This document shows, in pieces, positions 30,030 through 34,225 of a stretch of DNA of 37,734 nt; position 1 is the first letter of the stretch; each line of letters opens with the position of its first letter. This DNA comes from Thermoplasmatota archaeon. Lineage in GTDB: Archaea > Thermoplasmatota > E2 > DHVEG-1. The stretch lies in the NCBI GenBank assembly GCA_025457885.1, contig JALOTN010000040.1, forward strand, positions 1-37,734, read 5' to 3'. The notes under the pieces were generated by a model. That model worked only from the letters and a program-made list of their open reading frames with translations, did no database searches and had not been told where the DNA came from. Position numbers and translations under genes: made by a program.

Positions 30030-30722
30030 TTATTGCACGATATCTTGTCGTTCGAGGGTCATCATCCCCTGTTTACTCCCTACGATAACCTCATCAGCAA
30101 GACCGATGAACAACCCATTCTCAAGGACCCCGGGGATGTTGTTGATCTCTTTTTCCATGTTCTCCGGATCGGTTATCTTCCCAAAATCACAATCAATGAT
30201 GTAGTTCTGATTATCCGTGATGAACGCTTCATCCATGATCTTCCGTAGCTCCCCGGTACATCCAAGTCCTTCCAGTACCTTCTTGGTCGCTGACCAACCA
30301 AACTTCGTCACCTCCACTGGAAGGAAACAATCGCAACCCAATCCTTTCACTATCTTTGTCTCATCAACGATGATAATGACTTTTTTAGAATGATACGCGA
30401 TGATCTTCTCCCGGGTGAGTGCTCCTCCACCCCCTTTAATGAGATTCAGATTAGAATCAACCTCATCAGCACCATCAATCGTCAGATCGATTTCCACACG
30501 GTCATCAAGCTCAATGAGCGGGATTTTATACTCCGTTGCTAACCGTTTTGTCTTTAAGGAGGTAGGGACCGCTTCTATCTTCAGACCATTCTTGACCAGC
30601 TCCCCTATTTTTTTCACAGCGAACTCAACGGTTGAACCCGTACCAAGTCCGACAATCATCCCGTCTTCGATATATTGTGCTGCTTTTTCAGCAGCTTGCT
30701 TCTTCATTTCTTCTTGTTCCAC
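30030..30722 (-). CDS. rpiA: Ribose-5-phosphate isomerase A
   Basis: A 230-residue RpiA, interconverting ribose-5-phosphate and ribulose-5-phosphate. Signatures in order: GLGTGSTVEFAVKKI (near 26), DGADEVDSNLNLIKGGGGALTREK (in two parts, near 85-108), DETKIVKGLG (near 123) and LPVEVTKFGW. The open frame extends to 30770, but that part lies upstream of the expected transcript start. GTG 30722 is chosen because GGTGGG sits 3-4 nt ahead and the length then fits the family. A TATA-like box is at 30762-30767. It starts a minus-strand set with the two membrane proteins. Confidence 0.92.
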   Translation of the reverse strand: MEQEEMKKQAAEKAAQYIEDGMIVGLGTGSTVEFAVKKIGELVKNGLKIEAVPTSLKTKRLATEYKIPLIELDDRVEIDLTIDGADEVDSNLNLIKGGGGALTREKIIAYHSKKVIIIVDETKIVKGLGCDCFLPVEVTKFGWSATKKVLEGLGCTGELRKIMDEAFITDNQNYIIDCDFGKITDPENMEKEINNIPGVLENGLFIGLADEVIVGSKQGMMTLERQDIVQ

Positions 30723-30761
30723 TAGCCCACCCACAGGGTAATACAACAAGGAATACAAAAA

Positions 30762-30767
30762 CTTATA
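30762..30767 (-). promoter_or_regulatory. Candidate TATA box of rpiA
   Basis: Minus-strand TATAAG (context GTATAAGTTTTTG) lies about 43 bp before the GTG start, leaving a leader of around 16 nt that includes the GGTGGG ribosome site. It supports the GTG start over the upstream ATG. Confidence 0.4.
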
Positions 30768-30796
30768 CATCTTCTACTATTACGGACCATGAAACT

Positions 30797-31591
30797 ATGC
30801 TAGGAAAATGTGACGAACACGGGTATTTCCGTGGAGATGTCTGCCCGGTATGCAAAACAAAAGGAAAATTCCTGATGAGCGACCGTGAGCTTGATTCCCT
30901 AGGCCGCATCATGGCGGGAGTCCTGCGTCATTTCCCGGAGAAACTCGGGGTGAGTATGGATGGCCATGGATGGGTGGATATCTCCGAGTTTGTCGAAGCA
31001 GTCGGCGGGAGCAGGTCCGGCTTCCAATGGCTCCGGGACCATCATATCGAAGCGATCGCTGTAACCGATCCTAAAGGGAGATATCAGGTCGATGGGGGGA
31101 TGATACGAGCGACCTATGGACATACCATCGACATCAAACTCGATGATCTACCCCTTGCAGAACTTGATGAGTTCTTCTACCCGGTCACCGAGGAGGAAAT
31201 CGACATCATCCTTGAAGGTGGTCTTAATCCCATTGATAGGAAAAACGTCCATCTGAGTGGTAGCATGGAAAAAGCAATCGAAGCTGGGAAAGTAAGAACC
31301 GAAATCCCTCTTATCTTACGGATCGATGGGAAGCAAGCACAAGAGGATGGAATCAAAATCTATCATGCAGGCAAGGATGTGTATATCACCGAGCGAATCG
31401 ATGCCAAATATATATCAAAAGCAGATACCTCAGATGTAATACCTGCGAGTAATGAGTCCATATCTGAGGAACACATCCAGGAAGAACCTCAAGAGCCAAC
31501 TCTTTCTGAGGAAACAGAGGAACAACCACCAACAAAACCAAAGCGGAAAACCGCGAAGAAGACAAAGAAAACCAAACCCAAGAAGGAATAA
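30797..31591 (+). CDS. kptA: RNA 2'-phosphotransferase (Tpt1/KptA family) with charged C-terminal tail
   Basis: A 264-residue protein. KptA moves an RNA 2'-phosphate to NAD+, releasing nicotinamide and ADP-ribose 1'',2''-cyclic phosphate. An N-terminal zinc knuckle (CDEH, CPVC at residues 5-19) precedes the catalytic domain: SLGRIMAGVLRHFPEKLG near 36, RYQVDGGMIRATYGHTI near 95 with the key Arg and His, and VHLSGSMEKAIEAGKVR near 151. After about residue 212 there is a roughly 50-residue tail, first Glu-rich then Lys-rich (ending TKKTKPKKE), absent from compact homologues. The frame before ATG 30797 runs over the rpiA gene and is rejected. In archaea the natural substrate is uncertain. Confidence 0.9.
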   Translation: MLGKCDEHGYFRGDVCPVCKTKGKFLMSDRELDSLGRIMAGVLRHFPEKLGVSMDGHGWVDISEFVEAVGGSRSGFQWLRDHHIEAIAVTDPKGRYQVDGGMIRATYGHTIDIKLDDLPLAELDEFFYPVTEEEIDIILEGGLNPIDRKNVHLSGSMEKAIEAGKVRTEIPLILRIDGKQAQEDGIKIYHAGKDVYITERIDAKYISKADTSDVIPASNESISEEHIQEEPQEPTLSEETEEQPPTKPKRKTAKKTKKTKPKKE

Positions 31592-31595
31592 CTCC

Positions 31596-32216
31596 TCATT
31601 TCTTTTTTAGAAATACTATCGTGTTTTCTCCTGCCTTGACAGGATCACCAATTTTCACCGGGATTGATTCAATCATGTCCGCTTGGAGGGAGACATCCAC
31701 CCGTGAACCAAGCCGGATGATTCCGATGCGATCGCCTTTTTTCAACACATCCCCTTCTTTGATGTAGGGGTAGACTCGTCGGGCTATGAGACCAGCGAGT
31801 TGCACGATGGTGACTACCCCAATCTCGGTATCAATTGTGATTATCACCCGTTCATTCAGATCAGATTCCTTTTTCCAGGCTCTCAGATGATACCCTGGGA
31901 AATGCGTCATCTTTGTGATACGACCATCCAGGGGCATCCTATTGACATGGACGTTATTCACCTCCATAAATGTAGAGATAAAAACCTGGTTCTTCTCTTG
32001 TTTTATGTCTCTGATTCTCCCGTCTGCGGGTGCGATGACTCCCTCAGCGATGGTTCGTTCAGGGTCACGGAAGAAAATAAGGAAAAAAACAAGGACACAG
32101 AATGCTGGGATGAAACCAGCGAGAAACCACAGGGAGTACCAACAAAGTATGAAAAACAAAACACTGAACAATACTGGGGGTGCAACCCAGGACCAACATC
32201 CTTTTGCAATCCTCAT
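31596..32216 (-). CDS. psd: Phosphatidylserine/archaetidylserine decarboxylase proenzyme
   Basis: A 206-residue archaeal-type serine-phospholipid decarboxylase that yields the ethanolamine head group. One or two N-terminal membrane helices (about 11-48) lead to PADGRI near 63, NNVHVNR near 87 and the self-cleavage site LGS (Gly170-Ser171), whose Ser becomes the pyruvoyl group. The gene overlaps the stop of the upstream fusion gene by 4 bp (ATGA), so it is translated together with it. Its usual substrate in archaea would be archaetidylserine. Whether the link to the cysteate-forming gene signals a different head group is unknown. Confidence 0.9.
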   Translation of the reverse strand: MRIAKGCWSWVAPPVLFSVLFFILCWYSLWFLAGFIPAFCVLVFFLIFFRDPERTIAEGVIAPADGRIRDIKQEKNQVFISTFMEVNNVHVNRMPLDGRITKMTHFPGYHLRAWKKESDLNERVIITIDTEIGVVTIVQLAGLIARRVYPYIKEGDVLKKGDRIGIIRLGSRVDVSLQADMIESIPVKIGDPVKAGENTIVFLKKK

Positions 32217-34225
32217 AGCCTCTCACTAGCAGAGCGTGTATGGATCCCGCATTCCCCGCCCTTTTTAAGGGTTTTTCTCCATCGACCGTCTCGTTCGCTT
32301 TCATGGTCAAATATCGGGACTGTACAGGGTTCGCATCCTAAGGATCTGATTTTTCGACCATCTGGATATTTCTTCTTATACCACGGGTGCACCGGGATTT
32401 TATTGTTTTTTGTATATTTCCAGATATCTTCTTCAGTCCAGGTGAGCAAGGGATTGATCTTTGTCTCGGTATGACTTATTTTTTCTATTTCTGGGACATA
32501 TTTCCTGGTGTATCCCTCTGAGTTGCGAAGCCCACTGAACCAGGCGTGTAACCCTAGGGTGGCGTATGCGTAACGGACCGGGACGACCTTCAATAGTTGA
32601 CAACAGAGGTCTGGGTTTGCAGTATAGATCTCATGACTTGTGGCTTGTTTGATTTTCTCAGAGTGTATTTGATATTCCGTGGGGGATAACAAGGTAACAT
32701 CGATGTTCTTTTCTCTTAGCACTGGTGGAATAGTGTCTCCGACCATGAAGATCTTTGGTGTGAGATGGTATTGTTCAACGACCTTTGCGATGAACTCAAA
32801 GGTCTCTTGAGGTTTATGGATAGTAAGGACAGAAAAAATAGGGACGTTAGGGTTGATGGTTCTAGCAAGATGAAGCAGCACCATGCTGTCTTTTCCCCAG
32901 CTGCAGGCGACTGCGACCTTGTTACCATAGGTGTTCAGAGCATCCTGGATGAGTTCTTTGGAATGTTGTTTTTTTTCTTCGAAGGTTTTCTGGTTTATCT
33001 GAAATCTCTTTGGGAGGAATCGATAGGGTTCTATAGGTATTCGTTCTCGTCTGATTTCTTTTCTTCCCCCACCGGTGATGTTCACCAGGATGGTGTCTTG
33101 AGGATGGACTGTTTCTTTGTGGATGGCCTGCTGCAGGGATGCAATGGTGACTCCTGCCTCGGGGACGATACTGATACCCTCGAGTCGTTCGAACAGCCCT
33201 TGGGCTTTTATGATTTCCTCGTTGGTGACGCTGTACATCTCCCCATTTGTCTCTGTTAATATATCATAGACGCCGCCGGTCAAGGAATACGCAGGGTAAC
33301 GATTCGTTAGGACATGAGCTATCGTCTGATCGATCATCTGTTTTGCGGATTCCTTTTGGAACCGTTCATCGATGGTCCGAGACTGGTTCATCCAGGCATC
33401 GTACATGGGGGTATAGGGAGCGTTTTGGGAGCCGTGTATCTTTGGTGGTTTTTTCCCAAAACGTCCATCATTCATGAGTCGTTCCGAGGCTTCATATGCT
33501 GCAATCGCACCTGGTCCTGATCCGAGTGCCTGGAAGTAATGGTCAGGCATCTGACCAAGCAGTCGCGTCGCATCAAGAATCATGGTTCCAACGCTATCAC
33601 GACGACCGACATTCCGATATCCTCCTTCTGAGAGGTATCCTTCAACACGGGAGAATTGATTCGCTAAATTAATCGCATCATAGTAATCACCAAAGATAGG
33701 GAAAAGCCGGGTATAAGAGTTGGATTTGGAAAATGACCAGATACGTTTGACCCGTGCGTCTTCAGTGGCGAACAAGAAAATAGGGTACCGGAGTATGTTT
33801 GAATAATGAACAAAAGAAATCGCGTTGTTCCCATCCGAGGACATCACAAGAGGTTTCCCTGAGTCAAAGGTATCCATGATTCGTTGGAAGGTCACTTGTG
33901 CTTCCAGGTCCTTAAATGACCCGGTCTGACACTGGGGATAGGCATTCAGACAGATGATGAGGTTCTGCAGACCAAGGTGTTCCGCGAGTTTTGTACTCTG
34001 ATAGGTCTGGAAACAACTCCCAGTATCGATGAGTCGTGGGTCTATCTTTTGGATCGGCAGCCAATGATGAAACCGCCAGATCCCTGAGTAGGATTCATCA
34101 ACGACAAATGAGGTCTCATCGTAGACTGTTCTCAATAACGCGTCACATTTGTTTTCACAAGAACACAGATAGTGATCCGAAGAGTAACTCTTTCCGCATT
34201 TCAGACATTTCAGTGTGTATTTCAC
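32213..34225 (-). CDS. Fusion of cysteate-synthase-like PLP enzyme and assimilatory APS reductase
   Basis: 670 residues, two catalytic halves. Residues 1-400 are a fold-type II PLP enzyme of the threonine synthase group, most like cysteate synthase: a cysteine-rich start (C7, C10, C21, C23, C27), PLP lysine K105 in TGSFKDLEA, MPDHYFQALGSGPGAIAA (226-243) and VNITGGG (381-387). Cysteate synthase joins O-phosphoserine and sulfite to L-cysteate. Residues about 425-670 are a CysH domain: the PP-loop-like CSWGKDSM (441-448), iron-sulfur ligands C541-C542 and C631xxC634, and catalytic Cys659 in ECGIH. The CC...CxxC set marks an APS rather than PAPS reductase, which releases sulfite. The halves thus make and use sulfite. 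Start is GTG. Plain threonine synthase activity is the main alternative for the first half. Confidence 0.85.
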   Translation of the reverse strand: MKYTLKCLKCGKSYSSDHYLCSCENKCDALLRTVYDETSFVVDESYSGIWRFHHWLPIQKIDPRLIDTGSCFQTYQSTKLAEHLGLQNLIICLNAYPQCQTGSFKDLEAQVTFQRIMDTFDSGKPLVMSSDGNNAISFVHYSNILRYPIFLFATEDARVKRIWSFSKSNSYTRLFPIFGDYYDAINLANQFSRVEGYLSEGGYRNVGRRDSVGTMILDATRLLGQMPDHYFQALGSGPGAIAAYEASERLMNDGRFGKKPPKIHGSQNAPYTPMYDAWMNQSRTIDERFQKESAKQMIDQTIAHVLTNRYPAYSLTGGVYDILTETNGEMYSVTNEEIIKAQGLFERLEGISIVPEAGVTIASLQQAIHKETVHPQDTILVNITGGGRKEIRRERIPIEPYRFLPKRFQINQKTFEEKKQHSKELIQDALNTYGNKVAVACSWGKDSMVLLHLARTINPNVPIFSVLTIHKPQETFEFIAKVVEQYHLTPKIFMVGDTIPPVLREKNIDVTLLSPTEYQIHSEKIKQATSHEIYTANPDLCCQLLKVVPVRYAYATLGLHAWFSGLRNSEGYTRKYVPEIEKISHTETKINPLLTWTEEDIWKYTKNNKIPVHPWYKKKYPDGRKIRSLGCEPCTVPIFDHESERDGRWRKTLKKGGECGIHTRSASERL

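Follow-up and report, generated by a model that had tools for sequence, protein, structure and literature searches.

The window analysed here, a stretch of 37,734 bp, encodes a single polypeptide in which a PLP domain of the cysteate-synthase family is joined to a CysH-type sulfonucleotide reductase. The fused protein is probably (roughly 0.6) a bifunctional sulfate-to-sulfonate enzyme that carries sulfate through sulfite to cysteate, and perhaps further to taurine, a reading in which the two reactions, the link between them and the conversion to taurine are inferred. A sequence-only reading of this DNA had described the 670-codon frame without giving its strand, and had named its motifs: K105 in TGSFKDLEA, MPDHYFQALGSGPG, VNITGGG, CSWGKDSM, CC...CxxC and ECGIH. 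The frame is present on the minus strand and all of the motifs were found in it. The coordinates of the gene, its domains and its downstream neighbour are given in Table 1.

Table 1. Features of the fused gene and the adjacent decarboxylase gene in the window
Feature	Coordinates	Strand	Basis or remark
Fused CDS: cysteate-synthase-family PLP domain and CysH-type sulfonucleotide reductase	32213..34225	minus	670 aa, GTG start
Cysteate-synthase domain	33044..34219	minus	residues 3-394; TIGR03844 394 bits > 324.9
Linker	32987..33043	minus	residues 395-413; indel-free in 7 genomes; purifying selection
CysH-type APS/PAPS reductase domain	32231..32986	minus	residues 414-665; NF002537 168 bits > 154; PF01507
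K105, predicted PLP Schiff-base lysine in TGSFKDLEA	33911..33913	minus	sequence
Asparagine loop SDGNNAI, residues 130-136	33818..33838	minus	A131D, T134N, R136I vs canonical SAGNTxR
C541-C542, predicted 4Fe-4S ligands	32600..32605	minus	alignment to 2goy
C631-x-x-C634, predicted 4Fe-4S ligands	32324..32335	minus	sequence motif
ECGIH, residues 658-662, catalytic cysteine C659	32240..32254	minus	sequence motif
Second PSD-family decarboxylase paralog, 206 aa	31596..32216	minus	start overlaps fusion stop by 4 bases (ATGA)

The two domains of the fused protein

The Pfam domains of the fused protein are PALP and PAPS_reduct, and each of the two halves exceeds a curated profile cut-off. The N-terminal half scores 394.3 bits against the cysteate synthase model TIGR03844 (NCBIfam, equivalog cut-off 324.9, residues 3-394), a model that matches only M. 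acetivorans among 14 control genomes. Its best PDB sequence match is the cysteate synthase 9k3c (CapA2, Alistipes finegoldii), and the predicted structure aligns to this entry with an rmsd of 1.7 and a TMt of 0.87, with threonine synthases ranking behind. A tree of 48 sequences places the domain inside the cysteate-synthase clade, with the five threonine-synthase-type sequences outside it (SH-aLRT 99), and nearest to the homologs from G010 (a sister genus), an Armatimonadetes MAG and G040. The earlier description of this half as cysteate-synthase-like is thus upheld by cut-off, tree and fold together, and its assignment to the cysteate-synthase family is firm.

The Schiff-base lysine signature T[CG]SFK[DE]xEA is present with K105 conserved. 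Other cysteate synthases share 70 near-invariant positions (each conserved in 90% or more of them); the fusion clade retains 58 of these, K105 included, and differs at 12. The changes, which are invariant within the clade and affect the active site, cluster: all fusion members carry SDGNNAI in the asparagine loop (A131D, T134N, R136I) against the near-invariant SAGNTxR found elsewhere, and the GYxPExGA loop is shortened in all of them, with the P and E gone. SAGNTxR and GYxPExGA are empirical features of the other family members and do not belong to a published definition of the family. Such loops in fold-type II enzymes bind the substrate carboxylate. With these 12 changes, among them the three loop substitutions and the lost P and E, the fused domain may act on a different substrate. 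O-phosphoserine is the probable one.

Cysteate synthases were observed in two further settings. One comes from the Armatimonadetes MAG bin.262: it shares ~53% identity with the fused PLP domain, groups within the archaeal clade and has no CysH gene next to it, which points to gene transfer or a misbinned contig. Stand-alone cysteate synthases are also common in the Thermoplasmatota family f24 (L198, L200, L201, L030 and others), which we take to resemble Poseidoniales, and the examined loci have no adjacent ComDE.

The C-terminal half exceeds the cut-offs of the phosphoadenylyl-sulfate reductase model NF002537 (168.4 bits against 154; NCBIfam, residues 414-665) and of PF01507, PAPS_reduct (126 bits against 22.5). 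Its best PDB sequence match is the APS reductase 2goy, presumably that of P. aeruginosa. All four 4Fe-4S cysteines (C541, C542, C631 and C634) and the ECGIH motif are kept, and with the NF002537 score they mark this half as a complete 4Fe-4S sulfonucleotide reductase. The APS-specific model TIGR02055 gives 122 bits against a cut-off of 235, and CysC is encoded in the genome, so that PAPS would be available as well as APS. CSWGKDSM occupies the place of the SFGAED-like sequence of ordinary APS reductases, and the CSxGKDSM type forms a small subclade composed of the fusion CysH and the reductases of G010, a Heimdallarchaeota locus (L046), G144 and G116. In G116 the subclade contains a second unusual CysH fusion (L197:9139-10401, contig C103), with a C-terminal hexapeptide-repeat transferase domain and an adjoining sulfotransferase-like gene.

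Distribution and origin of the fusion

The fusion was found in seven of the nine genomes of the genus, which is presumably in the DHVEG-1 group under GTDB, and all seven are species-level genomes. They stem from several public projects, including UBA33, Lac Pavin sediment and Thermoplasmatales archaeon SM1-50, the last assigned to Thermoplasmatota by NCBI. That the frame is an assembly join of two genes, the outcome which the sequence-only reading had named as speaking against it, would fit with the two separate neighbouring genes of the sister genus and with the genomes being MAGs. This explanation was rejected as having next to no probability, because the joint is aligned in all seven genomes with zero indels and is under purifying selection (pN/pS of 0.13 for the CysS half, 0.16 for the linker and 0.16 for the CysH half). 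Two of the fusion genes carry a single in-frame TAA, at codon 292 in G006 and at codon 666, beyond the catalytic motif, in G004. In G010 the two genes are in tandem, with a stop followed by an ATG six bases on, and in G040 the CysS and CysH genes are separate and overlapping. The fusion is limited to this genus among the 42 cysteate-synthase-bearing genomes of the phylum sample, and the simplest reading is that it arose once, through loss of the intervening stop.

Linkage of the two genes extends beyond the fusion. The cysS of G040 is partnered by a CysH of a different subclade, the CSxGKDSM-type reductase gene of L046 is divergent to cysS-comDE, and that of G144, from another Thermoplasmatota class, lies ~2.4 kb from cysS on the same contig. 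The class of G144 was searched and holds no further linked CysS-CysH pairs, and among the named loci examined outside the lineage a CysH homolog was found within the flanks covered only at L046. CysS-CysH linkage therefore arose or was retained in several lineages, and its recurrence supports a sulfite-supply role for the reductase. CysH of the G040 type is also found beside an amidohydrolase-family gene in L012 (G008) and L032 (G028), in genomes with neither cysteate synthase nor sulfite reductase.

Sulfur metabolism, neighbouring genes and the proposed route

The genus encodes CysD-CysN-CysC, with the operon of the window genome split between two contig ends (C53 and C58), and no ATP-sulfurylase Sat was detected in the genus; most of the rest of the family carries Sat (PF01747). 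NIR_SIR sulfite reductase was detected in none of the 45 family genomes, with 11 of 14 control genomes positive. ComDE (sulfopyruvate decarboxylase) is absent from the nine genomes of the genus, and ComA and MCR from the 45 genomes of the family; the controls for ComDE and MCR were positive. The fusion-bearing genomes are MAGs of 73-94% completeness, which weakens an absence in any single genome, but the absences recur across the group. The presence of CysDNC and CysH without a sulfite reductase makes sulfate activation and reduction to sulfite possible, with no visible path to sulfide, and cysteate is the sole identified sink for sulfite in the genus. Another genome of the genus, G008, has CysDNC and another CysH with neither CysS nor a sulfite reductase, which suggests that sulfite can have another fate in the group.

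These genomes bear in two ways on what the sequence-only reading had proposed. The sulfate-activating genes that it had suggested looking for elsewhere in the genome are there as CysDNC, though not as Sat, and its idea of a sulfate-to-sulfonate polypeptide is favoured by the family domains, by CysDNC, by the lack of a competing sulfite reductase and by the recurrent linkage. The coenzyme M route, which it had mentioned as one use of cysteate, was rejected, since ComDE is missing from the genus and ComA and MCR from the family, and coenzyme M is an unlikely product.

The PSD-family decarboxylase encoded by the gene that overlaps the fusion shows an LGS motif and, near its N-terminus, a hydrophobic stretch. 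The ATGA overlap with the preceding gene also occurs in G001, G002, G006, G007 and G010. The copies in the operon group as a distinct clade (0.999) found in eight of the eight genomes with this gene pair, with no second intact PSD copy in any other family genome. In G000, G010 and G040, where it was examined, the other family copy adjoins a CDP-alcohol-transferase-like gene. A housekeeping role for the operonic gene is disfavoured because of this other copy in G000 (on C89) and because the operonic copies cluster apart. Pyruvoyl-dependent decarboxylation requires a free alpha-amino acid, so the simplest use of the paralog would be conversion of L-cysteate to taurine; archaetidylserine is a possible alternative substrate. 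The KptA/Tpt1-type RNA 2'-phosphotransferase gene at 30632-31591 of the window keeps its place next to the fusion and PSD genes in several relatives.

In relatives a PaaK/CapK-like ligase gene is oriented divergently from the fusion, and in G040 such a gene lies beside the CysS-CysH pair. In the window genome no such gene is next to the fusion, and the nearest copy adjoins a sulfotransferase; as the family is multi-copy, this neighbour is weak functional evidence. PaaK/CapK-like adenylate-forming ligases are also found repeatedly next to genes of the Sulfotransfer_3 type and close to the CysDNC operon (L126-L129, L206, L207), which suggests a sulfated-metabolite system.

In the proposed route, CysD-CysN would make APS from sulfate, and CysC could convert it to PAPS. 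The C-terminal 4Fe-4S CysH domain would reduce APS or PAPS to sulfite with thioredoxin as the electron donor. The N-terminal PLP domain would eliminate the leaving group from a phosphoserine-type amino acid to give aminoacrylate, to which sulfite from the CysH domain would be added to form L-cysteate, and the overlapping PSD-family decarboxylase may convert this to taurine. The fusion would couple the release of reactive sulfite to its use. The AlphaFold model of the fused protein has a pLDDT of ~96 for CysS, CysH block means of 31-90 and a pTM of 0.64; the interdomain arrangement is not confidently predicted, and the model speaks neither for nor against a channel or the direct sulfite transfer that the sequence-only reading had drawn from the fusion. 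The fusion would at least set the stoichiometry of sulfite source and sink. An extended version, in which sulfate assimilation ends at sulfite by design and runs from CysDNC through the fused enzyme, passing sulfite to the PLP site, the PSD paralog (taurine) and an adenylate-forming ligase to a sulfonated amphiphile, would be an archaeal sulfate-to-sulfonolipid pathway in a sediment genus without MCR, and is offered as an unlikely conjecture.

Other activities of the PLP domain were weighed against cysteate formation from phosphoserine. The domain might join sulfite to another electrophile (e.g. O-phosphothreonine, O-phosphohomoserine or O-acetylserine), giving a different sulfonated amino acid or using a different donor. 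The invariant, clade-specific loop changes described above would suit such an activity, as would the TIGR03844 scores of the fusion clade (394-403 bits), which lie under those of G040 (490) and of CoM-type genomes with adjacent ComDE (495-570). However, the domain keeps most of the near-invariant family positions and exceeds the equivalog cut-off, and the genes are paired in a like manner in G040, whose sequence is more canonical; we regard another electrophile as a tentative, minority reading. A cysteine-type synthase, in which sulfide takes the place of sulfite at the PLP domain and the CysH domain has a role elsewhere, is distinctly improbable. Fold-type II relatives do use sulfide and anoxic sediment is rich in it, but with no sulfite reductase the CysH domain has no means of supplying the PLP domain with sulfide, and the PLP domain clusters with cysteate synthases in the tree. 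That a threonine synthase has been fused to CysH is hardly credible and was rejected: the superfamily is shared and there are weak matches to threonine synthase models and structures, but the best of these models reaches only 82 bits against a cut-off of 303, the tree places the domain elsewhere, and several genus members have a separate threonine-synthase-like gene.

Relation to known systems and significance

The PLP domain belongs, by cut-off, tree and fold, to the same fold-type II family as archaeal-type cysteate synthase (TIGR03844; Methanosarcina MA3297; Alistipes CapA2), an enzyme whose chemistry is summarised in PMC12713407 and whose occurrence in gut Bacteroidota is covered by PMC10191378. 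It differs from these enzymes in its CysH partner, its three asparagine-loop substitutions and its shortened GYxPExGA loop, and in its setting, a genus lacking ComDE with no capnine genes recognised adjacent to the fusion. With the 4Fe-4S APS reductase 2goy the C-terminal domain has in common the CC...CxxC ligands, ECGIH and the PAPS_reduct domain, but it belongs to a distinct archaeal subclade, has CSxGKDSM for SFGAED and is the C-terminal part of a fused protein. Methanosarcina-type coenzyme M synthesis (cysteate synthase, aminotransferase, ComDE, MMP16) uses the same enzyme family at its first step, whereas the genus lacks ComDE and the family lacks ComA and MCR. APS/PAPS reductases of ANME and methanogens also bear added domains, and in the parts of PMC6286981 consulted these are iron-sulfur or cysteine-desulfurylase domains, with no mention of a cysteate-synthase partner. 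No description of a CysS-CysH fusion was found in the mainly open-access literature searched. The chemistry of both enzyme families is already known; what is new is the domain fusion in an unexpected metabolic setting, together with the observation of a PSD paralog that occurs only with the CysS-CysH pair.

Cysteate and taurine, as sulfonates, take part in the sediment sulfur cycle. Archaeal cysteate synthase is usually interpreted as a coenzyme M gene, and here it is tied to sulfate reduction with no coenzyme M use found. As a single expressible polypeptide, the fused protein would let the coupling of sulfite release and use be tested directly, and the fusion points to a sulfate assimilation devoted to sulfonates, not cysteine.
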